Shown here in pieces: positions 4,530-54,189 of a stretch of 64,000 nucleotides of DNA. The stretch covers positions 1 through 64,000 of the forward strand of contig JAPJBO010000383.1 of assembly GCA_030068145.1 (NCBI GenBank). Direction: 5' to 3'. Made by a program: the position numbers and the translations under genes. A model generated the notes under the pieces. That model worked only from the letters and a program-made list of their open reading frames with translations, was not told where the DNA came from and did not search any database. This stretch comes from Diplonema papillatum (lineage: Eukaryota > Euglenozoa > Diplonemea > Diplonemida > Diplonemidae). The number at the start of each line of letters is the position of its first letter. Positions within the stretch are counted from its first letter, which is position 1.

Positions 4530-4697
4530 AATACGATCTTCCTCTTTTTGTTCCAGATTTGATCGTCCTGCCGAAAGAAGAAGTGGCGCTGAACCAGCTA
4601 ATCCAGATTGGCTGAGTGCTATGTGTTGTGAATTAATTGTTGCAGTACCCCCCTCAACTCACCCAAAGCTGTTCGAGCGTTGTCGAGCGTAATCGTT
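4530..4697. repeat. Dispersed repeat, copy 2 (partner at 60-250)
   Basis: Diverged second copy of the 60-250 repeat in the same orientation, ending just before the inverted-repeat element at 4703. Confidence 0.6.
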
Positions 4698-5106
4698 TTG
4701 GGTTATCACCCATTCCACGAAAAAGTGTCACAGATTTCGGCTTTTTTCGGATTTCTGCCGAAAATTTCCATCTGCAGGTCCGAAAATGGTCGGTTTCGAG
4801 ATTTTGAGGACACGTTTGAATCCGTTGAGGACAGGGCTTTCCGAATATTTGGTCGGATAAAATTTTTGACCGACCCCCCCCCCGGAAATGGAGGTCGGCA
4901 CCCGAAAAAATGGGGTCCTGGAGATCGGTTTTTTTTCTCTCTGCATCCAGGAGGGGGTCAGATTTTGATCGCTGGGCTAGCTGGCAGCTTGCCCATAATC
5001 GCGCATCCCAGAACTACTCGAAAACCAAAAGATTTCCCAAAAAGACCTCGAAAATAATTTCCAGACGGCTGCTTTTCACACCGAAAAATCGCAAAAAAAA
5101 AAAATC

Positions 5107-5176
5107 GGACCGGGGGAATCGAACCACGGCCTACAGGGGCCCAGGAGGGTGCGGTAACCGTTAGGCTATGTTGCCA
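5107..5176 (-). other. tRNA-like sequence with A-box, B-box and T-run
   Basis: Minus strand: TAGCCTAACGG fits an A-box and GGTTCGATTCC a B-box; a long T-run follows as a possible Pol III stop. Acceptor stem ends (GGCAACA versus GGTCCGA) do not pair, so I call it tRNA-derived rather than a tRNA gene. Confidence 0.5.
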
Positions 5177-5189
5177 AACCTCGGGCAAT

Positions 5190-5455
5190 TTCAATTTCAA
5201 TTTCAAAAATTTGGAAACCGCACCCGGGTTAGGCTTGGGGATACGGTGCTAAGGTTCCTTGTGCCTTCTCTTCATCCTTGGGGCGTTTGTTTGTTTTCTG
5301 TTTCCTTTCGTTCGTTCTTGGTATGGTTGTGGGGGGGTTCAGTGGGATTGTTTCTTGCCCGCCCTCCCCTTGTTTCTTGCCGCTGTTTTGGTAATGATGT
5401 CCTGGCGTGCCAGGCTTTACCAGTCGCGGTCGGTGTGTTTCCGGCGATTGTCGCG
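5190..5455. repeat. Dispersed repeat A, copy 2
   Basis: Nearly identical to 945-1195, differing by a few bases, with the same short TTTCAA run on its left and the same tRNA-like neighbour. Confidence 0.8.
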
Positions 5456-5663
5456 CCCAGGTGACCGGGCCAAAATTCGCTTTTAGCGCCTGCTCAGTTG
5501 GAATTCTTATCGGAAAGTGCGAGATCGTCATTTACTCGTTTCCAGTGTCCCAGGACGGTATTCTGCTCTCTCAGAGCTTATTTCGCCCGGTTTGCGAAGA
5601 ACTCAAAATGAGTCCAAAAATTCTCACTCGGTAGTGAACAAAAAAAATTTCCGCCGTTTTTTT

Positions 5664-5733
5664 AGCCCATGGTCCAGAGGTTACCACACCCACACAGGGG
5701 TTTGTGGGTCGGTGGTTCGATTCCCGCCGGAAA
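5664..5733 (+). other. tRNA-like sequence (plus strand)
   Basis: Contains TGGTCCAGAGG (A-box-like), a possible long anticodon arm with ACCCACA/TGTGGGT pairing, GGTTCGATTCC (B-box) and a T-run at about 5746. T-stem pairing is imperfect. It faces the opposite way to 5107-5176 inside the same element. Confidence 0.45.
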
Positions 5734-5953
5734 TCGTTTTTTTGGGTTTTTGAAACAGCCCCAAAACCGACCTTTTGTCCATCTGCACGCCAGATTTTGG
5801 TCGCCACGCGAGCTGATTGCTTGCCCATAATCGCCAGGGATAGCTCTTTCCATCCCAAAAAAAATTTCCCAAAAATTCCAAAATTTTGACCCAAAACGGG
5901 CTGCTTTTCAGACGGAAAATCTGTGACACTTTTTCGTGGAATGGGTGTTATAA

Positions 5954-6680
5954 TAATGCTAACAATCTGTGGCGATAGTCTGCATCGCCGGCGTCGCTGT
6001 TGCTTCTTCGCACGTGATGTGTTATGTTTTCGCCTCTTCAGCTCGTCTTGATCGTTGCGTTCAGGCGCGCGCTTGGCGCTTCGCTTTTCCTTCGAGGGGA
6101 GGTGGTGGGTTCCCGGCACTCCGCACGTTGGAACGGCAAGACACTCTGTTTGGCGGTGGTCTCCATCGGTTCGTGCGAGGGGAGGTGGTGGGGGTTCCGG
6201 CATTCCGCACGTTGCGGAAGGTGAGAGAGATGAGAGAGACTCTCTTCACCTCGCCGTCGCGGGTGCCGTGCGTCCACGCGGTCCTGGCGGGGACCGCCGT
6301 CATGTTGCCAACATCTCCTTCAAGTTGAGCTTCCGGTCCCGCGAACACGCTTTGTCGTCCGTTCACGAAGCGACCTTCTGCCTCCAGCAGTGCCGCCCAC
6401 GCCCGCGAGCCTGGCGTCCGTCGACAGGACGCTCCCTGTGTCCTCAGGAACGCCGCCCAGCTGCGAAGTGGCAGCGGGGCATTGCTGGCCTCCGAGACCC
6501 TCTTCATCGTCGCGACTATGTCTAGCTGGGCCACATGAGAGTTAGCACTCGTGTGTGCAGCAGAAGAGAAGACCTGAAGGGGAAACGGGAGTGCTACCAA
6601 CCGCGCCCCGTTGGAACGTCTGCCCTGGTCTCCGATTTTCCGAGTTTCGTCCTGCAACGTTTCGCCAGCGCGGTGAACAT
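5954..6680. other. No firm gene; weak minus-strand coding look
   Basis: GC-rich. A GAGGGGAGGTGGTGG word recurs at 6097 and 6179. The minus strand from about 6530 to 6260 reads as an ordinary-looking protein segment with Met, Trp, Leu and Ala in balance, but I recognise no domain and see no clear exon borders. It could be an exon or a decayed gene fragment. Confidence 0.25.
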
Positions 6681-28950: not shown

Positions 28951-29595
28951 ATGCCGATCCCGTTCCACTACACGACGAGCACAGAGCGGAAGATAGTGAA
29001 GCTCGACCTGCGGGCGTCCGCGATGGAAACCATGTCAGGGGAGGAGGGCATGACGGCCATCGACTACGACACGTTCCACGAGGGCCACAAGACGCTCGGG
29101 AAGAAGCCCCCGCGCACCATGTCCGACAAGCAGATGCTCGCCGCTTTGCGGGAGGTCCTCTACCGGAAGCACAAGGACGTCCGTGCCGCCTTCTGCAAGA
29201 TGCTCCGATACTCAGGGGAGCAGCAGCAAGGCAATCACCAGAAGCCAGAAGCTCCGCGCGTGCCTATCCGCGAGTTTTTGGACCACCTCAAGTTGCTCGG
29301 CTGTGCGTTGGAGGAAGACGAGGTGGCCGCATACCTGGCGCAGTTCGAAGCATACCCTGGAGAAGGGTTGGACTACGCCGACTTTACCGACATCATGGGC
29401 GACCACAGCAGCGACATGGTATCGACGAGAAGAGAGACTCACGACTTGGACCTGACCACCGTGAAGCTGAAACCGATGTCCCGCTCGATGGCTTCCAACG
29501 TCCTTCCCCGAGTCGCCTCTGCACTCCCACAGGGAACGTACGGAGAGTACGACAGAACTACCGTGGTATGCTTCGGTGACGACGTCATGAAGTAA
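28951..29595 (+). CDS. EF-hand-like (calcium-binding-fold) protein, 214 aa
   Basis: Residues ~55-150 resemble two paired EF-hand helices: LREVLYRKHKDVRAAFCKM and the helix ending LLGCALEEDEVAAYLAQFE, then YPGEGLDYADFTDIMGDH. The would-be loops lack the full DxDxDG set, so calcium binding may be lost. The rest is unrecognised. It is probably single-exon; AATAGACAG|GGAACC before the ATG could be the SL acceptor, leaving an 18-nt 5' UTR. Truncated copies of its 5' end lie upstream. The last codons (GDDVMK) and 3' UTR match the end of the neighbouring retrotransposon frame (GDDVIR and its tail), so the gene's 3' end may have been supplied by a retroelement remnant. Confidence 0.65.
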   Translation: MPIPFHYTTSTERKIVKLDLRASAMETMSGEEGMTAIDYDTFHEGHKTLGKKPPRTMSDKQMLAALREVLYRKHKDVRAAFCKMLRYSGEQQQGNHQKPEAPRVPIREFLDHLKLLGCALEEDEVAAYLAQFEAYPGEGLDYADFTDIMGDHSSDMVSTRRETHDLDLTTVKLKPMSRSMASNVLPRVASALPQGTYGEYDRTTVVCFGDDVMK

Positions 29596-29664
29596 CCTTA
29601 AGCGGCGACACAGTGCATGCTAATCCATGTGGTTCATGTACTTAAAAGAACTCAATGCTCAACT
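29575..29664 (+). repeat. Left ~90-bp direct repeat flanking the retrotransposon
   Basis: Pairs with 37705-37793. The first 14 nt (GGTGACGACGTCAT) are identical; then come about 21 diverged nt, then 54 nt with two mismatches (29611-29664 versus 37740-37793). It includes the EF-hand gene's stop codon. It is either a very long target duplication or a 5'-truncated remnant of an earlier element. Confidence 0.75.
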
Positions 29665-29666
29665 AC

Positions 29667-29705
29667 AACCAACGATTTAAAAGCTACAGTTTCTGTACTT
29701 TATTG
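29667..29705 (+). other. Spliced-leader exon sequence fused to the retroelement
   Basis: Exactly 39 nt, from AACCAACGATTTAAAAGC to TGTACTTTATTG, matching the diplonemid SL as I remember it. It is followed by TGGCTGCTC rather than a GT donor, so it is not an SL RNA gene. It is most simply the trans-spliced 5' end of an element mRNA copied back into DNA. Confidence 0.85.
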
Positions 29706-29823
29706 TGGCTGCTCACGCGGCCGGTAAAGTGCGCCCGGAATTCATCCAGGACAAACACCCTCCATAACACAACAGCGGTACCCATCCGCGAAAAGAACGC
29801 GGGCTACCCGTACCTCCGTCAAA

Positions 29824-31746
29824 ATGGACAGGATTAACGCCCTGATCCAGGAAGCGCGCGGGATGGCGGAACGCGCCAACCGCGACCAGCTGGATGCCGT
29901 TTTCGGCATCCTCGACGTCGCCACGACGCTGCTCCGGCGTCAGATCGAGGCGAACAGCGGGGAGCCGGCGCAACAACGGCCGCCACTGCAGCAACAGCAG
30001 CAACCGAAGCAGCAGCAGCAGCAACCGAGGCAGCAGCAGCAGCCGAGGCAGCAGCGGCAGCAACCGAAGCAGCAGCAACCGCAGCAGCAACCGCAACCGC
30101 AACAGCAGCAGCAACAGCAACGGCAAACGCAGCAGCGCCGCCCGCAGGGGCAGCAACAACCGCAACCGCAACAGCAACAGCAACAGCAAACGCAGCAGCG
30201 CCGCCCGCAGGAGCAGCAACAACCGCAACCGCAACAGCAACAGCAACAGCAAACGCAGCAGCGCCGCCCGCAGGAGCAGCAACAACCACAACAGCGGCCC
30301 CGGCAGGGGTACGCGCCCACCTGGGCAGAAGTGACCAGGCGGCCCCCGCCACCCGGTAAAATCGACGCCGCCGACTGGGACGCGCCGGTACTCCCCTCCC
30401 CCGACTTCGAAGCTGTCGAAGCTGGCCTCTGGGTCGCCCCGAGCGCCGCCGCAGCCGAAGAAGCGAAGGGTCCCGCAGCAGATGCGGTGGACGTCGCAGA
30501 GCGCGACGGGAAGCGGGTGCGCCTCGGCGTGCTGTGCCGGGAGGCCTTCGACGACGCACGCCGGGGCCCAGTGCTGCTGGAAGGCGGGCGGGTACAGGAT
30601 ATGTACCTGTGGGCGGGCGGCGGGCCGGTATGCCAGCGGGGCCAGGTGAAGGTCCAGAAGATGCCCGTCAGCGCGGTGAAGCCGAACGCCGCGACGACGG
30701 TACTGGCCTTCGTCGTGGCCAGGAAGCACGCCTCGCCGGAGACCTGGGAGTGCGTCGAGAGGGACCCGCGCACGGCCCTGACTCGCCTGTGCCGGAGGGC
30801 TGTCAAGACGGCCCTGAAGACGGAGGTCCGCGTCCCCGACGACGCCATGTGGGGCGTGTCGTCGCAGCAGGGGAGGCGCGAGCTGGTCGTGCGGGTGCCC
30901 CGCGCGCAGGCCGAAGCGATCCTGGCCAGCTCCGGCCGGGACGGCGGATTCTGGCGGTCGACGGAGAAGGCCTGCCGGGACGCCATGCCGGTGGTCGCCC
31001 TGCAAAAGGGGGTCACGAGGGCGGTCGCGCTGGCGGTAGCTGAGCGGGCAGGCGCGGCGGCAGCCGGTCTCGTGCTCACGGGCAGCCGCCTCCTCGTGCG
31101 CGCACGCAGCGGCGCTGTGCTGGAGGAGGTGCGTGCGGCGGCCGCCGAACACGCTGCTGCCCCCCTCGAGTCGAAGCCGCGCTTCCTCGTGGTGGGTGCG
31201 ACGCCGCGGGAGCACGAGGCGGACGTCGAGTACGTCCTGCGGGAGGCCGGCTGGCAGGTCGACGTCGCCACGTCGTTCCTGCGAAGTGGGGCCCGGGTTT
31301 GCGTGGTGACGTCGGCGGCCGACCCTCCCTTCAGGGTGCTGCAGCGGGAGGGGGCACCCGACCTCCGGGTAAACCCGTACGACGGAGGTGAGCTGCCGAG
31401 GGAGCGGCGCAGGCGGCTCGCTGCCGCCCCCAGCGGGAAGCGGCGGATGCGGCTGCCGGCGGCGGAGGTGGACGAGCTACCGCAGCCGGCGGCCCCGCCA
31501 GCGGACGCGGCCGGACAGAAGAAGAGGAAGACGCCGGAGCCGGCAGCGGACGGGCCGGAACCCGCTGGGGACGATGTCCCAATGGACGGTGCAGAGGCGG
31601 GCGGGCACGTCCACGCCTTCGGGAGCCCGGCGAAGGCCACCGCCGGTTTCTCCTGCGCCCTATGCGGGAAGAAGAAGGCGAAGGGCCAGATCCGCACGAC
31701 ATGCGAGGGCTGCAACGTCGGCGCGTGCAAGGCGTGTGCGGGTTGA
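29824..31746 (+). CDS. Retrotransposon ORF1 protein, Gln-rich with C-terminal Cys6 zinc motif
   Basis: 640 aa. Residues 1-50 are helical; ~55-160 are extremely Gln-rich with three ~21-residue repeats (QTQQRRPQEQQQPQPQ type). A globular Ala/Arg/Val-rich middle (~165-540) is unrecognised. The acidic/Pro linker carries a KKRKTPEP nuclear-signal-like patch. The C-terminus has C611, C614, C627, C630, C635 and C638, a CX2C-X12-CX2C-X4-CX2C zinc motif reminiscent of the cysteine-rich domain at the end of piggyBac transposases. By position it is the RNA-binding ORF1/Gag-like protein. ATG 29824 is the first in-frame start in the leader. The stop is TGA followed by CTG, a leaky-type context, and the next frame is in phase. 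Confidence 0.85.
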   Translation: MDRINALIQEARGMAERANRDQLDAVFGILDVATTLLRRQIEANSGEPAQQRPPLQQQQQPKQQQQQPRQQQQPRQQRQQPKQQQPQQQPQPQQQQQQQRQTQQRRPQGQQQPQPQQQQQQQTQQRRPQEQQQPQPQQQQQQQTQQRRPQEQQQPQQRPRQGYAPTWAEVTRRPPPPGKIDAADWDAPVLPSPDFEAVEAGLWVAPSAAAAEEAKGPAADAVDVAERDGKRVRLGVLCREAFDDARRGPVLLEGGRVQDMYLWAGGGPVCQRGQVKVQKMPVSAVKPNAATTVLAFVVARKHASPETWECVERDPRTALTRLCRRAVKTALKTEVRVPDDAMWGVSSQQGRRELVVRVPRAQAEAILASSGRDGGFWRSTEKACRDAMPVVALQKGVTRAVALAVAERAGAAAAGLVLTGSRLLVRARSGAVLEEVRAAAAEHAAAPLESKPRFLVVGATPREHEADVEYVLREAGWQVDVATSFLRSGARVCVVTSAADPPFRVLQREGAPDLRVNPYDGGELPRERRRRLAAAPSGKRRMRLPAAEVDELPQPAAPPADAAGQKKRKTPEPAADGPEPAGDDVPMDGAEAGGHVHAFGSPAKATAGFSCALCGKKKAKGQIRTTCEGCNVGACKACAG

Positions 31747-31749
31747 CTG
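31744..31749 (+). promoter_or_regulatory. Possible UGA readthrough site between ORF1 and the AlkB-RT frame
   Basis: TGA CTG. The frame is open from 29824 to 37725 except for this codon. UGA followed by CUN is a known readthrough-prone context in viruses and some cellular genes. Alternatives are a single point mutation in this copy or reinitiation downstream. Confidence 0.55.
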
Positions 31750-31794
31750 CCACCGCGACCCGTCCCCGGCGCCAGTTGTGGCCCCGCCAGGCCG

Positions 31795-34700
31795 GTGCAG
31801 GCCGCCCAGCGCGTGAGTCCCAGCACGCAGTTCGACGATGGAGCAGGCGAAGGTGGTGGCGATCCCTCTTCTTCTTCTTCTTCTTTTTGCCCCCCTCTCT
31901 CCCACAATGCGCCAGGCCTCATTAGCCCGGGAAATTTACCCGCAGCGCACAAACAATCCCCCCACAAAGGCCAGCGTGCCTGCGGGGGGGGCCCTGTCAG
32001 GGTGGAGGGAGCAATCCCCGGACTAAGCTTCCAGACGATCCCTCGGGATCTTCTGGACAGACTGAGCCGAGTACCCGAGCTTGGGCCGAAAGCCACTTGG
32101 AGGAGGCTGGGGGGAGAACAAAGCAGAGAGACCCAGCAGTGGGGACACGCCTACCGACAGGGCGGACCCCCGGTCAGACTGGAACGGGGTATCCCCGAGG
32201 GGCCCCTGAAAGAAGCGGCGGATCTCATACGTGACCGTCTCGGGTGGGAACCGGACCAGTTGCTGGCCAACTGGTACCGGAGGGGAGTGGGGATCAACCC
32301 CCACAAAGACCAGAGAGAACTGGGTCCGAGGGTAGCGACCGTATCGCTCTTGAGCGACACGGTCATGGAGTGGGAGAGGGGGAGCCGGAGAGTGAGAACC
32401 CCCCTGCCGGTCGGCACACTGTGCCACATGGAAGGCGAGGCCAGGAGCCTGTGGACACACGGGATTCGTCCCGATGATGTCGCACGCGACCGGGTCTCGC
32501 TCACCTACAGGGCCGTGCGCGAGGCCGCCTCCCAACGTTTGCAAGGCCGGGACACCCCGCAAGAAACTCCCCCCATGCCCCCCCCGCCCCGCCCTCAGGC
32601 GTCCTCCCCACCCCCCCAGCAACAGTTCAGCCCCGCGCCACGTACTGACTTGTGTAATCGCCAAAGAACTCTTATATCTATTAAGGAAACTACTAGACAG
32701 CAGCTGTTAAGCGCTGGAGACATCGAACAGAACCCGGGCCCCGGCCGCACGGAGATGAAGTTCGCGACGTTGAACGTAACTAGCTTACTTCAATATCTCC
32801 CAGCGGCCGACGCGGTGGAAGCGGATCTTCTCTGCTGCCAGGAGGTGACACTCCTTCCGTGCAAACGGGCGCAGGCGGAGGAATACCTGCGGAAATGGTG
32901 CTGCCACTGGGGCCTGCCGCCTCCCGGAAGACTCTGTAGAAACTCCGGTAGTCGCTCGACGGTGAACGCCGCGAACGGGGGGCTCTCCACTCTAGTACTG
33001 AGACCGATACCTGCGTACGATACGATGACGGCGCTCTCGCACGCAGCAATACGGTCCCCGGACCGAGTGAGCCATACGGTAGTAGCAACAGGGGCCGGCA
33101 ACACGTTCGTGCACGTGTTCAATGTCTACTGCCCTTCCGGAAACGGGAGGGCGGAGAGCGAGGAGCGTGAGGACATGCTGGAGAAGATCCTCTTCGCAGC
33201 GGCAGATAGCCTCGGTGACGTCCCCATAATGGTGATGGGTGACCTGAACACGGAAGAAGACCGGTCCCCTGTGCTGCGGAAGGCACTAAGGAACGGATGG
33301 TCCGACGCAGCGGAACTGCACCATGCGCGTACCGGTGACACACCGCCACCACCGACCTTTACCAGCGCCCGGACGACAGGCACGAGGATCGACCGCATAC
33401 TCCTCAACCGAATAACGACGGGAGCTTTCCGTCAATGCGTCACCACCGCGGTGAACGTACCGGGACACCGGCTCGTGACAATGACCCTGGACATTGCGGC
33501 GCTGCGCCAAATCGTGTGGCGATTTAAAGTACCGCGGGAAATCCCTACCGAGGGGGGACCCAAGTGGGGCCTCTCGGACACAGAAGCTAACAGGGAAGCC
33601 GTACAGAGACTGACCAACTCCGATTTCGCAGAACGGCTGGCAGCACAGCGAGTGGAAGAGGCCTGGCTCGAGTGGTCACGAGTCAGTGAGCAGTACTTGC
33701 AGGATGCCTTCGGAATCCCTGCGGAAGAAAGGGGAAGGAGTACCGGCCGGGGGATAAAGACGTCGCCTAAGAGAGTCTGTATCACGGCAAGCACTGCGAG
33801 CGACGGGTCGGGGGCGGCGAACAGCAGACAGCTACGGCTCCGGAAGGCCATCCACAGGATGGAACGCATCTGCAGCTACCTTGCGCAGCGACGCGGGCCG
33901 GAGGCAGTTCCGCATGAAGTATCCCGTTGCTGGCAGAACAGCAGACGGCTGGCACAGGCGTGCATGAAAGGTGGCCAAGGGACAGAAGGATTCCCGGATC
34001 ATGAGGAGGCGAAGCAGCTTCTCACGGCATTGCGGGAAGAGACGAGTAGGCTCGGAAGGGAAGGATCGGCGGCCAGGTTTACGAAGTACCGAGACAAGCT
34101 GAACGAGAGGGCCGATGCGAGCAGACGATGTCTGACAACCATCTGCGCCGGACGCGCTGAGCCGTCGGGGGTGTTGCGAACGGGGGCGGGAGTGACTGCA
34201 AATGTTGACGAGATGGACGAGGCGCTGAACACTGCGTGGGACCCTATCCTGCGTAAGTACAAGGACGGGCCAGAGCCGGAGTACGAGCCGTTTCGGGATC
34301 GGTTCCAGGATCACATCGGCCCACACTTGATGGAAGCCGGAACAATCACGGGGGAGGAGCTGCGAATTCTGCTGAGGAAGAAGCCGAAGAAAAGCGCGTC
34401 AGGGGTGGATGGCTGGCGCATGGCTGAACTGCGGGAGTTGCCGCTCCCCCTGCTGAATGCACTTGCAGACGTCATGAACCTGGTCGAAGCGACTGGGGAC
34501 TGGCCGGCAAGCATGACAACTGCGCTGGTGTCGATGGTGCCGAAAGATGAGAGCCAAGACCCGCTGCACACGAGGCCGATAACCGTCACGTCCGCCGTGT
34601 ACCGCTTGTGGGCCTGCCGCAGGCTTGCGGACATTGTCCTGTGGCAGGAGGGGTGGATCGAAGAAGGACAGAAAGGCTTTCGGCCGGGCCACCGGATCGA

Positions 34701-37700
34701 GGACGTCTTGATGGAGATAGGGCTCGAGGTGGAGGACGCCTTGCTGGACGGAGAGCCGCTCTACGGAGTGGCGCTGGACTTCCGGAAGTGTTTCGACATG
34801 GTCCCGCGAGAGGTAGTGCTACGCCTGGCTGAGGACTTAGGACTGCACGGTCGGGTTCTCAAGCCGCTGAGGGCGATTTACAGTCTGCTCGCAAGACGCT
34901 TCAAGTTGCCGCTAGGGGTGGGCAGGGAGTTTAGTGTGACCAACGGTATCCTTCAAGGGTGCCCTGTGTCCGTCATACTCATCAATGCCCTGCTGTCGGT
35001 AGTGATGAAAGCGGTCAAAAAAGAAGCTGAGGGTGTGAGTCCTAAGTCGTACGCGGATGATGCCACACTACTGTCCAGGCTGTCGGAGGCCGCACTGCAA
35101 AAGGGAGTCGACATTGTTGACGAGTTCTGCACACTCACCGGAATGCAGCTAAACCTCGAGAAGACCATCGCATTCTCGACGAGGCAGAGGCACCAGTCGA
35201 CGCTCAGACTCCGAAGCGGAAATGCGCTGCTGCGATTTAGCAAGTCCGTCACGTGTCTGGGGGCCCTAGTCTCAACGGCGAAGAACAGAAAGGAGAGGTC
35301 CGACTCTAAGAGGGTAGAGAGGGCGGCGGCCCTAGCGGAGGGCCTCCGCCACGCGCCATTCCGGTACGAAAAGCGGGTCCGTATTGTGCAGTCGAATGTG
35401 TTGCCGGCAGCGCTATCGGGCTGCTCCTTCGCGCCGGTGTCAAAGGTGGCGATGAAGCGGTTGACGACGTCGGTGATGGGTCTGATCTGGGGTGGAGCAA
35501 ACCCGAAGCGCGCGAGAGAAATGGTCCTGAACTTCCAGGAGAAGGGCCACCTGACGGACCCCGGTACGTGTTTAGCGTACCGGGTGACGACGGCGTTCTA
35601 CGCGGCGTGCGAGAGGCTGCCGCGACTGCTACCTCTGATGGAGAGTATCCGGGGGCGGTACGCCGAGGGGGACCAACCCCTCGGCCCAGTCGGGCTGGCG
35701 ATGAGGAGCATGGAGGAGTGTGGACACATATGGGAGCCTGGGCCCCTATCTCGCACGCTACGACGGAATGGTGCAGTGTTCGACCCGCTGGCCTCGTCGC
35801 CCTCGAAGAGGGGGCACGAAGTGAGGGCGGACCTGAGAACGAGGACGTGGGCCCGACTGATGGCGAGAAGGCCAGGATATCAGGGGCTGGAAAGAGCCGA
35901 CTTGGAGCGCACGAATGCGTTCTGGAAGACGAGGGAATGTTCCGCGCACACGGCGAAGCTAATTCGAGTTGCGATTGCGGGGGGTGTGAACACGGCGGAG
36001 TTCACGTCGCGGATGAGGCAGGCTGGAGCTGAGCCGCAGGCGCCCAGCTGCAAGCACTGTGGGAGCGGCGTGACGGAGAACGAACAGCATATCTACTGGG
36101 ACTGCGACGCATACTCACACATTCGCCGGCGGGAAGCACACGCCGGGCTGATGGCGGCCAACCGAACCGAGTGGCCCCGATGCACGCTGGAACATGGTGT
36201 GGTTGTACCGGGGAACGCCCACTTATCGAGGCGGCTCCAGGAGATGATGGCTGAAATCCTTGCGGAACGTGCAGGGCTCGAAGCACGTGGCTGGGTAGCC
36301 AGGAACCCCACGACCCCCTGGTCGAGAGCGGATGCGATGCCTGCCGAGAAATTTGACCACCCCTTTGCGCGGATTGCCCCGGCATGGACGTGGGAGCGAA
36401 ACAAGACCTGGGGACTACCGACGTTTTATGCGTTGGTAGCGTGGCTGTCTGACATGCAGTGGACCGAGAGCGGGCAGGCGTCAATGCTAGAGCTTGCGAT
36501 CGACTTTGAACTCTTCTCGGGCCTCAGCATGCCGCTGCACGGGAATGCGCCGAAGGGGGTGAGAGAACGGGGAAACGTCCTGCGCTGCATGATGAGCGCG
36601 TTGGACAAGCTGGCGGCACAGCAAGGGCTGGGAAGCTGCATGAGAGGGGAGAGGGTGTGCCCGACGACGTCGCTGTCGTTCATGGGCATCTCGGGGATAT
36701 CGGGTGTACGGCCCAGGCCACGCTTTCGCGAGGCACACACGGGGACGATACTTGAGGAACAAGTGAAAGGAAGCGATGTAGGGACGCAGTGCCCGGCGTA
36801 CCCTGACTGGACGATCGGGAGAGCGGCGAGGTGGGCCCTGCCTGCCCCACCACAACTGCACCCAGACCCCGTGCATATGCCGGGTGTCGATATAGAGAAG
36901 GCACTCGTCACGTGCGCGACCCATCACAAAGGGAAGTGTGAGGCGTGCAGAGCACTCGTCCGAAGGGACGTGCCCACGGTAGAGATGTGCTGCCGGCACC
37001 ATCACCACGCGAACGATGGGCAGCCGATCGCGGTGTGCACAGAGCACAGCACGACGAAGTGCGGCGAGTGCAAGACGGCGGCGGCGTGTTGCCGCAGCGG
37101 GCATCATGCCTGCCGCACGCATGGCAGAGGAACCTGCCAAGAGTGCAAGAGGCTCCCTACGCTGACGCAGAGGCGACCGGCGGCATGTTGCCGCCGCGGC
37201 CACCACCAGTCCAACGAACCGAACGTCCCGTCAACCCCCGGACGCAACAAGAAGAAGAGGCCCTCCTCACCCACCCAGGTGGGCGTACAACGGGGAACGC
37301 CAGTTGGAAAGCGAGCGGCGCAAGCGCCGCCCGCGGCAACGAAAAAGGAGACGGCGACGACCGGACGGGCGACCAAAAGGCCGCCACCAACGCCAGGAAC
37401 CAGCGAACGACCAGCGCTGAAGAAAAGGGTGCTAGGCACCCCGAAGGAAGGCCCGATCGCCGGCCGCAAGCGGAAGAAGACGAAGGCGACCACCCCCGAC
37501 TCAGGGGTGCATCGAAGGAAGAAGAAGGTACCGAGGGCAGGCAGCTCTCAGAAACGACCGGGGACCACGGGCACACAAACGCCCTCGAAAGTGAAAAACG
37601 GACACACGTGCCCGCCCTCGTACTCGCCGACTCAGTCTCTGGAATCGCAAGAAAGCCAAACCCCGCTAGCTCCACAAATGCTCGACCTTGACGACGCAAT

Positions 37701-37725
37701 GGCAGGTGACGACGTCATCCGATAA
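31795..37725 (+). CDS. Retrotransposon polyprotein: AlkB dioxygenase - 2A - APE endonuclease - reverse transcriptase - Cys/His cluster
   Basis: Numbered from the GTG at 31795; the frame is open back to the UGA at 31744 and has no ATG before AlkB. AlkB fold ~75-245: NPHKD (H170, D172), THG (H222) and RVSLTYR (R233-R239) give the HxD...H iron site and 2-oxoglutarate arginines. A Pro-rich linker follows. The 2A peptide is GDIEQNPGP (~308-316). APE endonuclease ~318-565: E350, GDLN (D483, N485), RID (D533), PGH (H558). RT ~840-1170: LDFRKCFD (D995), YADD (D1088-D1089). CCHC: C1419, C1422, H1432, C1437. Three Cys/His repeats span ~1707-1804 (CX2H..CX2C then CCR-x2-HH), then a Lys/Arg/Pro tail. No RNase H recognised. 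Expected products are AlkB (possibly fused to ORF1p) and a ~1660-aa APE-RT. Family knowledge: AlkB enzymes demethylate alkylated nucleic acid; its use here, protecting or editing element RNA/cDNA, is inference. Confidence 0.9.
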   Translation: MQAAQRVSPSTQFDDGAGEGGGDPSSSSSSFCPPLSHNAPGLISPGNLPAAHKQSPHKGQRACGGGPVRVEGAIPGLSFQTIPRDLLDRLSRVPELGPKATWRRLGGEQSRETQQWGHAYRQGGPPVRLERGIPEGPLKEAADLIRDRLGWEPDQLLANWYRRGVGINPHKDQRELGPRVATVSLLSDTVMEWERGSRRVRTPLPVGTLCHMEGEARSLWTHGIRPDDVARDRVSLTYRAVREAASQRLQGRDTPQETPPMPPPPRPQASSPPPQQQFSPAPRTDLCNRQRTLISIKETTRQQLLSAGDIEQNPGPGRTEMKFATLNVTSLLQYLPAADAVEADLLCCQEVTLLPCKRAQAEEYLRKWCCHWGLPPPGRLCRNSGSRSTVNAANGGLSTLVLRPIPAYDTMTALSHAAIRSPDRVSHTVVATGAGNTFVHVFNVYCPSGNGRAESEEREDMLEKILFAAADSLGDVPIMVMGDLNTEEDRSPVLRKALRNGWSDAAELHHARTGDTPPPPTFTSARTTGTRIDRILLNRITTGAFRQCVTTAVNVPGHRLVTMTLDIAALRQIVWRFKVPREIPTEGGPKWGLSDTEANREAVQRLTNSDFAERLAAQRVEEAWLEWSRVSEQYLQDAFGIPAEERGRSTGRGIKTSPKRVCITASTASDGSGAANSRQLRLRKAIHRMERICSYLAQRRGPEAVPHEVSRCWQNSRRLAQACMKGGQGTEGFPDHEEAKQLLTALREETSRLGREGSAARFTKYRDKLNERADASRRCLTTICAGRAEPSGVLRTGAGVTANVDEMDEALNTAWDPILRKYKDGPEPEYEPFRDRFQDHIGPHLMEAGTITGEELRILLRKKPKKSASGVDGWRMAELRELPLPLLNALADVMNLVEATGDWPASMTTALVSMVPKDESQDPLHTRPITVTSAVYRLWACRRLADIVLWQEGWIEEGQKGFRPGHRIEDVLMEIGLEVEDALLDGEPLYGVALDFRKCFDMVPREVVLRLAEDLGLHGRVLKPLRAIYSLLARRFKLPLGVGREFSVTNGILQGCPVSVILINALLSVVMKAVKKEAEGVSPKSYADDATLLSRLSEAALQKGVDIVDEFCTLTGMQLNLEKTIAFSTRQRHQSTLRLRSGNALLRFSKSVTCLGALVSTAKNRKERSDSKRVERAAALAEGLRHAPFRYEKRVRIVQSNVLPAALSGCSFAPVSKVAMKRLTTSVMGLIWGGANPKRAREMVLNFQEKGHLTDPGTCLAYRVTTAFYAACERLPRLLPLMESIRGRYAEGDQPLGPVGLAMRSMEECGHIWEPGPLSRTLRRNGAVFDPLASSPSKRGHEVRADLRTRTWARLMARRPGYQGLERADLERTNAFWKTRECSAHTAKLIRVAIAGGVNTAEFTSRMRQAGAEPQAPSCKHCGSGVTENEQHIYWDCDAYSHIRRREAHAGLMAANRTEWPRCTLEHGVVVPGNAHLSRRLQEMMAEILAERAGLEARGWVARNPTTPWSRADAMPAEKFDHPFARIAPAWTWERNKTWGLPTFYALVAWLSDMQWTESGQASMLELAIDFELFSGLSMPLHGNAPKGVRERGNVLRCMMSALDKLAAQQGLGSCMRGERVCPTTSLSFMGISGISGVRPRPRFREAHTGTILEEQVKGSDVGTQCPAYPDWTIGRAARWALPAPPQLHPDPVHMPGVDIEKALVTCATHHKGKCEACRALVRRDVPTVEMCCRHHHHANDGQPIAVCTEHSTTKCGECKTAAACCRSGHHACRTHGRGTCQECKRLPTLTQRRPAACCRRGHHQSNEPNVPSTPGRNKKKRPSSPTQVGVQRGTPVGKRAAQAPPAATKKETATTGRATKRPPPTPGTSERPALKKRVLGTPKEGPIAGRKRKKTKATTPDSGVHRRKKKVPRAGSSQKRPGTTGTQTPSKVKNGHTCPPSYSPTQSLESQESQTPLAPQMLDLDDAMAGDDVIR
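32719..32742 (+). other. 2A ribosome-skipping peptide coding site
   Basis: Encodes DIEQNPGP (residues 309-316), fitting the D-x-E-x-N-P-G|P 2A signature, preceded by the usual Leu/Ser-rich helix (QQLLSAG). It lies exactly between the AlkB module with its Pro-rich linker and the endonuclease, where separation makes sense. 2A peptides are known from several APE-type LINEs, including trypanosomal ones. Confidence 0.85.
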
Positions 37726-37793
37726 CCTGACTTTCAAGGCAGTGCATGTTAATCCACGTGGTTCATGTACTTAAAAGAACTCAATGCTCAACT
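37705..37793 (+). repeat. Right ~90-bp direct repeat flanking the retrotransposon
   Basis: Partner of 29575-29664. It contains the last codons of the RT frame (GDDVIR, TAA) and the 54-nt tail. Confidence 0.75.
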
Positions 37794-52590: not shown

Positions 52591-53144
52591 GTTGCGGCTG
52601 GCCGTGTTCATTGTTGTCAGGGCCGATAATACTGCTGCACACTGCAACCAGGCCCGCGCGTGTTGCTGGTTGCGAAGGCGCAAACTCTGCGGCCGAATAT
52701 TCAAATAATAATAAAACCCGTGCGGTCGGGGGTCCAGGCCCTCCAAACATTCGCTTTTACCTGGCGTTTGCCCCTTCTTTTTGGTTCTAGCTACCCCGAG
52801 GGAAACTGGGGTTGTGTGCCAGCTAACCAGATGGTTCGATGGGTCTTCTGCCCCCCGATACCGGGTAGTATACCCAGCTTTGACGAGCGACCCGCCCGTC
52901 AACACAGGCAACGGTATCCTCACATCGTGCATTCCTGACCCGTTGTGTTGTTCCTGCTTTTGCTTTTCAAGCTCATTGCGCATCTCTCGCAGTCTAGAGG
53001 GATCATTTTGTGTCACTTCTTGTCAATTTCGACCGCCTGGACGAATAGCCGCGGATACGGACTTCCCTCAAGCACCATGGCGTGGGTGGATCGCTTGAGC
53101 ATCATCCATTTTCGGGACCGGTGCATTCGGCAGGTGAGTCGTTA

Positions 53145-53260
53145 CACACTCATTATCGGATGCCGACTTCCATGACCACCGTCCTGCTGTCAAGATGTAC
53201 CGCCACCCTTTGTGGGATTTGATGAGCGATCACTCGGACACCTTAAGCCAGCTCTCGGTT
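53145..53260. repeat. Dispersed repeat, partner at 21290-21400
   Basis: GATGAGCGATCACTCGGACA and GTCAAGATGTACCGCCACC match the earlier copy. From 53261 to 54189 no gene is supported; a 187-codon minus-strand frame at 53459-54022 has no domain. Confidence 0.6.
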
Positions 53261-54189
53261 CATCCCGCGTCGCCCAGTCCTGCTTACCAGAAGTGGCCTC
53301 CTTCGAACCAGGATTCTACATCAGGCCGTAATTGACCACTGAACTGCAGAAAGCTCAGCGTCAACTACAGGCAATTATCTGTTTGCTTTCGATAGACACA
53401 AAGATAGCTCAAAGCATCGGCAGAATAACACGAAAAGCCTCAAGGCAAAAACTCGTTTTCACATTTCTTTGACCAGCAACACCCAGAAGGCTCTGTGAAG
53501 TTCTCGCATCGATGCAGATTTATCGCTACAGATTATTTGCGTTCTGACCCAGGACTCGCGTCGACTTTTGCGGTGCGTCTTCCCTAGCAATAGCAGCGGT
53601 GTGTGGATGAAACAGGTCCATCGAGTGATAGCACACGACGTCCGCGGACGACTGCGCCACGCCGTCGTCCGGCGCAAGAATCGTTTTCGACTCAGGTAGT
53701 CTCGAAAAACAATACCCGAAGCGAACGAAGGAATCAAGCAAACAAAAGAAAACGATGCGTCGGTCCATGGTCGCCCTGTGCTACCGAGCCAGGTAGTGCT
53801 TTCTTTTCCTAATTTTGAACGAGTTGCAGTGGTTTCGGAGCAACAGTCGCACAAAAGCCGGAGACTCCGATGTACCGATGTACTGAATTGAACCCCCTTG
53901 ACAATGAGACCGCCTTCATCGAAGAATTGTGCATGAGTCACAAAAGAAGTCTCTGTGCGTTTGCACCGCACAGTCAAAGTCGGCGTCAAACTGCGCTGCA
54001 GAAGAATAGAATGCTTCTGCACGAGCTGACGGCCGTTTCAAGCGCAAAACAAGAGAAACTAGCCATTCCTGTTGCCGGCTAGATAGCCACACGTTGGATT
54101 CTTAGTTCTGTCTGATCGCTTTTTCGTCTGTTTTTCGTCCTTTTTCGTCTTTCAAATTTGGGCCTTCCTGAATTGGCTACGAACTGATA

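Follow-up and report, generated by a model that had tools for sequence, protein, structure and literature searches.

The window analysed here, a stretch of 64,000 nucleotides from the start of Diplonema papillatum contig JAPJBO010000383.1, contains a full-length non-LTR retrotransposon (LINE) on its forward strand. The element is of the APE type, with an APE endonuclease (EN) and a reverse transcriptase (RT) encoded in one frame, and it belongs to a multicopy family with 5'-truncated copies and a defined 3' end. Its parts are as follows.

29575..29664, forward strand: incomplete 3'-tail copy of the element, adjoining its 5' end on the upstream side (83% like 37705-37793)
29666..37793, forward strand: full-length APE-type LINE of about 8.13 kb, from ACAACCAACGATTTAAAAGC to ...AAAGAACTCAATGCTCAACT; the ends are placed where fetched copies stop matching and are exact to a few bases
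29824..31746, forward strand: ORF1, 640 amino acids, with a Gln-rich N-terminal part and a Cys-rich C-terminus (by eye), ending in UGA
31744..31749, forward strand: UGA-CUG, the ORF1 stop in frame with ORF2, a candidate readthrough site (UGA-CUN in subfamilies A, B, B2 and C)
31747..32013, forward strand: weakly constrained linker within the ORF2 frame, which lacks AUG in the window copy
32014..32517, forward strand: AlkB-type 2OG-Fe(II) dioxygenase domain with complete HxD...H...RxxxxxR (PF13532, PDB phmmer, predicted fold, copies)
32716..32742, forward strand: 2A ribosome-skipping motif, GDIEQNPGP (GDVEQNPGP in B, B2 and C)
32755..33495, forward strand: APE-type endonuclease (PF03372, E 1.4e-8; dN/dS)
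34276..35505, forward strand: reverse transcriptase region (PF00078, E 1.1e-18; PDB LINE-1 ORF2p, E 8.7e-20)
36913..37722, forward strand: C-terminal region opening with tandem Cys/His-rich motifs (by eye; no Pfam match)

No Pfam domain was found in ORF1 above the cut-off. The frame that follows its stop (31747-37722) is open for 1992 codons, and the best solved relative of its EN-RT part is LINE-1 ORF2p (PDB, 8.7e-20). Under an order-1 Markov model of the element, 338 open codons would arise by chance with a probability of 1.5e-4; thus the open frame alone would not carry the claim that an AlkB is encoded here, and it is the domain evidence that does so. A first, sequence-only reading of this DNA had described an AlkB-type dioxygenase built into a LINE. 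Its coordinates and residue numbers were right, and matches to Exo_endo_phos (1.4e-8) and RVT_1 (1.1e-18) downstream in the same frame bear out the description.

The genome (271,365,524 bases in 2910 contigs) was searched with the AlkB-2A stretch as query. There are at least 120 matches, falling into at least three subfamilies, and in 117 of the 120 matches listed the matched stretch has no stop. These numbers, together with the selection seen between subfamilies (below), argue that the AlkB frame is more than a product of chance. Subfamily A, which includes the window copy, accounts for 41 of the listed matches (97-100% identical; two of them are pieces of one place), and 79 have 70-90% identity. 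Copies to be read were picked by the analyst from the 120 and gave 26 rows, namely the window, 20 further A copies, two of B (L055, L056), one of B2 (L057) and two of C (L058, L059). All of these loci were found via AlkB itself, so the sample is one of AlkB-bearing copies.

The AlkB domain and its conservation

Within ORF2 (31747-37722), Pfam-A family PF13532 matches with an E value of 7.8e-13 and 49.5 bits (cut-off 31.2), covering profile positions 80-194 of 194. The domain occupies 32014-32517, and NPHKD, WTHGI and RVSLTYR are all present in the window copy; HxD...H is the iron triad and RxxxxxR the 2OG-binding motif. The LINE frame contains a complete AlkB-type 2OG-Fe(II) dioxygenase domain, for which demethylase activity is predicted. 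This is what had been claimed from the letters, a complete AlkB-like domain on the N-terminal side of ORF2 with these motifs, and the profile search proposed as a check gave a match above the curated cut-off.

A phmmer search of the PDB with the window AlkB ranked ALKBH8 first (1.4e-6), followed by S. pombe Ofd2 (4.5e-5) and ALKBH6 (7.8e-5); ALKBH5 was absent from the matches up to an E value of 1. The structure of the domain was predicted with AlphaFold2 from an alignment of 23 rows (the window, 4 LINE copies and 18 of 26 bacterial or viral-contig loci), giving a pLDDT of 86.4 and a pTM of 0.83, whereas a single-sequence prediction reached a pLDDT of only 35.5. In the alignment with bacterial relatives the HxD...H and RxxxxxR residues are invariant or nearly invariant columns. 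The model has the double-stranded beta-helix expected of the family, as far as a prediction can tell. Foldseek placed ALKBH6 first (E 1.1e-12, TMq 0.80), then ALKBH8, ALKBH5 and ALKBH2, so that the predicted fold, too, speaks for the original assignment. Also among the matches is C. elegans NMAD-1, whose PDB entry is titled DNA N6-methyl adenine demethylase. Giant-virus, phage and RNA-virus proteins match the model in a viral structure library. Four AlkB proteins from viral contigs are 30-35% identical over nearly the entire domain, and 22 further bacterial AlkB loci came from a scan of genome contigs; viral contigs searched with single-sequence queries gave no relative, and a phage tblastn gave no match.

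NPH(K/R)D, WTHGI and RVSLTYR are complete in all 26 rows read, the window included; L056 reads NPHRD, which keeps the HxD. An examination of other copies and of their dN/dS had been proposed along with the initial claim, and both went in its favour, the intact motifs being those of copies picked up through AlkB. Ratios were calculated by the method of Nei and Gojobori with one representative per subfamily pair. Between A and C they are 0.135 for AlkB (dS 0.417), 0.164 for EN and 0.08 for RT, and between B and C 0.138, 0.151 and 0.058. Between A and B the values are 0.233, 0.08 and 0.07, AlkB being clearly looser than EN and RT, which counts against constraint on the domain in this pair. In AlkB, A and C differ by 40.5 synonymous and 20.5 nonsynonymous changes; the expected nonsynonymous share is 75% (binomial P 5.6e-12). 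Amino-acid identity between A and C is 0.88 in AlkB versus 0.54 and 0.45 in the flanking linkers, and the linker at 31747-32013 has a dN/dS of 0.47-0.75; AlkB is an island between loose linkers. The domain is under purifying selection between subfamilies.

Divergence between A and B is uneven along ORF2, with a dS of 0.06 in the EN-RT spacer and 0.36 in RT, which points to mosaic copies; the ratios given above may therefore be blurred by exchange between subfamilies. B and B2 (L055 and L057) have nearly identical ORF2 and different ORF1, and this, taken with the A-B variation in dS, points to modular exchange.

AlkB might be functionless, a host exon picked up as a passenger. Transposons do capture genes, and the accessible text on orchid Gypsy elements (PMC9289625) and on Symbiodinium (PMC5890265) provides examples, but the subfamilies keep the catalytic motifs complete and AlkB under purifying selection, and the same AlkB group recurs in three transposon types (below), which makes this explanation highly improbable.

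Expression signals around the AlkB frame

Two candidate recoding signals enclose the AlkB frame. The downstream one, GDIEQNPGP, occurs once in the window and in none of 100 shuffles, and a 2A motif lies between AlkB and EN-RT in all 26 rows read. L1Tc of Trypanosoma cruzi is another APE-type LINE that reportedly bears a 2A (work attributed to Heras in 2006 and Odon in 2013). According to the accessible text of PMC4981915, 2A sequences end in a conserved D(V/I)ExNPGP, and LINEs are among their carriers; the element described here resembles these L1Tc-like LINEs in carrying the pattern in the coding frame of an APE-type element. With the motif C-terminal to an upstream product in 26 of 26 rows, ribosome skipping is predicted.

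The upstream signal is the ORF1 stop. In 25 of the 26 rows it is UGA-CUN in the same frame as ORF2, the layout expected for readthrough; in the remaining row, L054, similarity to the window begins at 31752, beyond the UGA site, and its AlkB frame enters from an upstream copy. UGA-CUN is a leaky stop context. The codon after UGA is CUG in A and C, CUA in B and CUC in B2. Since the A rows are near-identical, the 25 rows represent about four independent lines, and conservation of the site may partly reflect shared descent. A, B2 and C do not share the sequence around the stop, and the C-terminal end of ORF1 in B2 (L057) is unlike that in C; UGA-CU is kept throughout. No in-frame AUG lies between the upstream stop and AlkB in 22 of the 26 rows. 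Together, the in-frame UGA-CUN and the general lack of an in-frame AUG before AlkB suggest programmed readthrough of the UGA to yield an ORF1-AlkB fusion.

RNA structure downstream of the UGA varies from line to line and gives readthrough no uniform backing, with z scores of +0.75 in A, -2.35 in C and -1.93 in B2; the value of -2.50 in B comes from a fold with the stop in the middle of the folded stretch and is not comparable with the other three. Other routes into the frame were considered. One was entry from AUGs in another frame followed by a -1 frameshift at the run of eight G (G8, 31984-31991). It was rejected, because in A, B and C the AlkB frame is already open and protein-alignable ahead of that run and no frameshift is needed. 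An intron using the GTGAGT near 31812 would have its donor-like motif in A rows only (by eye) and would leave the UGA in place. Reading UGA as tryptophan was also rejected, since ORF2 has 35 TGG and no TGA; the counts in ORF1 are 8 and 0.

Alternatively, AlkB might start at a non-AUG codon of its own or by reinitiation after ORF1, and be released by the 2A as a free protein. The weak constraint on the linker would fit such a start, as would the AUGs that A has in another frame. Rows L052, L053 and L059 have an in-frame AUG in the linker, so initiation there is possible in some copies, and the related AlkBs of an RLE-type LINE and of Helitrons (see below) have one shortly before the domain. Against this stand the shared frame of ORF1 and ORF2 and the presence of UGA-CUN in the four lines read despite their differing surroundings, and we regard an independent start as somewhat unlikely.

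Under the readthrough reading, most ribosomes would stop at the UGA and produce ORF1p, and a minority would read through it to make ORF1p-AlkB, after which the 2A motif would release EN-RT as a separate protein. AlkB would then be attached to the presumed RNA-binding coat protein of the element and not to its RT. AlkB and EN-RT had been taken as one unit in the sequence-only reading. They do share one open frame; with a 2A between them and UGA-CUN adjoining the AlkB frame to ORF1, however, they are probably not one protein. If confirmed, the order ORF1-UGA-AlkB-2A-EN-RT would provide a LINE with a compact setting of protein ratios by two recoding events per message.

Related AlkB domains in other transposons and their possible role

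A PF13532 profile search was carried out on the whole genome, in which the best 150 of 250 candidates were scored. Beyond the LINE family, the matches listed include host-gene-like ones (by eye) and other large frames. On C166 and C930 (L060, L062, L065, L066) an AlkB 44% identical to that of the window lies N-terminal to a Helitron-like Rep and in one frame with it (Helitron_like_N, PF14214, E 4.5e-38 and 2.5e-38); the open frames are 2986 and 1910 amino acids long, and the continuity of the AlkB-Rep frame was checked by coordinate arithmetic. Family D, found on C468 and C641 (L064, L067, L068, L069, L087), has an AlkB 79% identical to that of the window, in a frame of up to 2322 amino acids with an RT (PF00078, 4.3e-22; R2 in the PDB, 7e-8) and, by eye, an OTU-like stretch and an RLE-like end; the OTU-like stretch has no Pfam match. 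The AlkB sequence of family D is that of C468 (L064), the C641 AlkB being known as a PF13532 match only. Positions 1-4600 of C641 are in frame with that match and without a stop, 4600-6414 lying outside the stretch read. Five matches with the PF13532 score of family D (C468, C641, C783, C1045 and C2854, of which the first two were read) are all on the minus strand less than 7 kb from the contig start, and family D may for this reason be a subtelomeric element. Family E (C948, C1931, C32; L080, L081, L084, L086) has AlkBs 46-47% identical to that of the LINE and on the same branch; no transposon domain was recognised by eye in the 3 kb downstream of the C1931 copy.

A tree was generated from 34 AlkBs, of which 10 were labelled as transposon-borne (TE), 11 as host-like and 13 as bacterial or viral-contig; the eukaryotic rows are from this genome only. 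Seven of the 10 TE rows belong to families in which AlkB is linked to a transposon domain, while C479 and two family E rows are so labelled by AlkB similarity alone. Left out of the 16 PF13532 loci fetched were L075 (partial) and L084 (a copy of E), and 13 of the 26 bacterial or viral-contig loci were used. All 10 TE rows fall on one side of a single branch (100/99; 100% of 200 bootstrap trees), and a second tree, from which 7 host-like rows and 1 viral-contig row were dropped as long or divergent, has the same branch at 100/100. As both trees are unrooted (midpoint for drawing), to speak of a clade assumes a root outside these rows. The AlkBs of the LINE, the RLE-type LINE and the Helitrons form one branch apart from the sampled host-like and bacterial AlkBs, and so the domain is not peculiar to a single LINE.

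AlkB appears from these comparisons to be a conserved, selected part of the LINE family and an accessory shared by transposons in this genome, with a predicted activity. This points to base demethylation as an accessory function for which transposons can be selected, and not a one-off capture. Because transposons that copy through RNA and through DNA share the same AlkB group, its benefit must lie in something they have in common, be it the mRNA, single-stranded intermediates or genomic copies. We favour an action on single-stranded intermediates for this reason; a role on RNA alone would not cover the Helitrons. As an Fe(II)/2OG demethylase, AlkB would demethylate the intermediates of its own element, which are template RNA and cDNA for LINEs and single-stranded DNA for Helitrons, and this repair of damage or removal of marks would keep copying from being blocked. 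The sequence-only reading had put forward repair or unmarking of the element's RNA or cDNA, or a counter to host base methylation, as possible roles. Our preferred model, a multicopy LINE of the order ORF1-(UGA-CUN)-linker-AlkB-2A-EN-RT that combines readthrough, 2A release and demethylation of single-stranded intermediates, is in our judgement somewhat better than an even bet. The broader proposal is that of a transposon-dedicated AlkB family, exchanged among APE-type LINEs, RLE-type LINEs and Helitrons within this one genome, that serves a need they all share by clearing methyl groups from single-stranded intermediates or element copies; in the APE-type LINE it would be made as a UGA-readthrough fusion to ORF1p, with 2A release of the replicase. 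We give this an even chance.

Two other substrates were weighed. AlkB might act on DNA marks: freed of N6-methyladenine or some other mark set by the host, element copies or new insertions would escape silencing. DNA is a substrate common to the LINEs and Helitrons that share the AlkB group, NMAD-1 is among the fold matches, and the accessible text on SymbioLINE-Dnmt shows that LINEs do acquire DNA-methylation enzymes (PMC5890265). The sequence, however, ranks ALKBH8 first and the fold ALKBH6, ALKBH8 and ALKBH5, and the ORF1 fusion, if real, would put AlkB on RNA; a role on DNA marks is in our view unlikely. Erasure of m6A or a similar mark from the element's mRNA, altering its stability or translation, has been proposed for orchid Gypsy elements, whose AlkB bound RNA and demethylated it in vitro according to the accessible text of PMC9289625. 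All three transposon types have an mRNA, and ALKBH5 is among the fold matches; yet the sequence matches are ALKBH8 and ALKBH6. Moreover, m6A promotes L1 and ALKBH5 suppresses it in human cells (PMC7873242, as far as its accessible text goes), which disfavours a simple benefit from m6A erasure. This role seems still less probable than one on DNA marks.

The closest precedents, as described in the accessible parts of the respective papers, are the orchid Ty3/Gypsy AlkB (PMC9289625) and SymbioLINE-Dnmt (PMC5890265). The orchid elements (Tat/Ogre-related) are likewise retrotransposons with an acquired AlkB-type demethylase, an AlkBH5-like 2-ODD domain active on RNA in vitro, but they are plant LTR elements with AlkB in an ORF2 of its own and nested among plant AlkBH5. 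Here the carriers are LINEs and Helitrons, AlkB is nearer to ALKBH8 and ALKBH6 by sequence, and it adjoins ORF1 through a UGA stop and EN through a 2A. The present element does not belong with the orchid type, being an APE-endonuclease LINE with PDB sequence matches to ALKBH8 and ALKBH6, not ALKBH5. SymbioLINE-Dnmt of Symbiodinium is likewise a LINE with a nucleic-acid modification enzyme reported to be under purifying selection, but its DNMT, in ORF1, adds methyl groups, whereas AlkB here would remove them (PMC5890265).

The literature search was confined to open papers in PMC; among the matches listed there, the titles and abstract openings describe neither a LINE nor a Helitron that carries an AlkB. 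The accessible text of PMC5890265 contains none of the words AlkB, TET or dioxygenase, and that of PMC4981915 on 2A in LINEs does not contain AlkB. Plant RNA viruses of the Alpha- and Betaflexiviridae and Closteroviridae carry an AlkB (PMC9289625, accessible text), likewise a selfish-element AlkB postulated to act on the carrier's own nucleic acid; these carriers are RNA viruses, and the likeness to the AlkB described here is by fold only. Family D resembles the RLE-type LINEs Utopia and NeSL, as they are presented in the accessible text of PMC4640811, in its zinc-finger-like stretches, RT and RLE-like end (by eye), with a protease-like domain in some; Ulp1-like proteases are found in some Utopia and NeSL families, whereas family D has AlkB and the OTU-like stretch (by eye).

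Insertion sites and flanking sequences

Of the 18 rows in which the 5' start was read, 15 (the window, L038-L047, L049, L050, L053 and L058) have a further copy of the 3' tail immediately before the element, with lengths between about 35 and 483 nt. The arrangement looks like the outcome of end-to-end template jumping or of self-stacking at the target. For 29575-29664 in the window, a very long target-site duplication was considered and rejected, since this stretch repeats part of the 3' tail of the element itself.

The 3' flanks are also recurrent (window from 37794 onward; L037-L057), reading ...AATGCTTAACA, then a few variable bases, then CGTGGGC. The LINE seems to insert at a specific, repeated target. 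CGTGGGC lies within 40 nt of the 3' end in 19 of the 24 rows in which that end was read, the window's own flank not being among them, and in many 3' flanks it is followed by a hairpin of changing sequence. A search of Rfam with seven loci for the identity of the target gave no match. Elsewhere, the window contains a 14-3-3 gene and, at 53046-53340 on the minus strand, a partial and diverged stretch of eukaryotic LSU rRNA (RF02543, model positions 967-1380).
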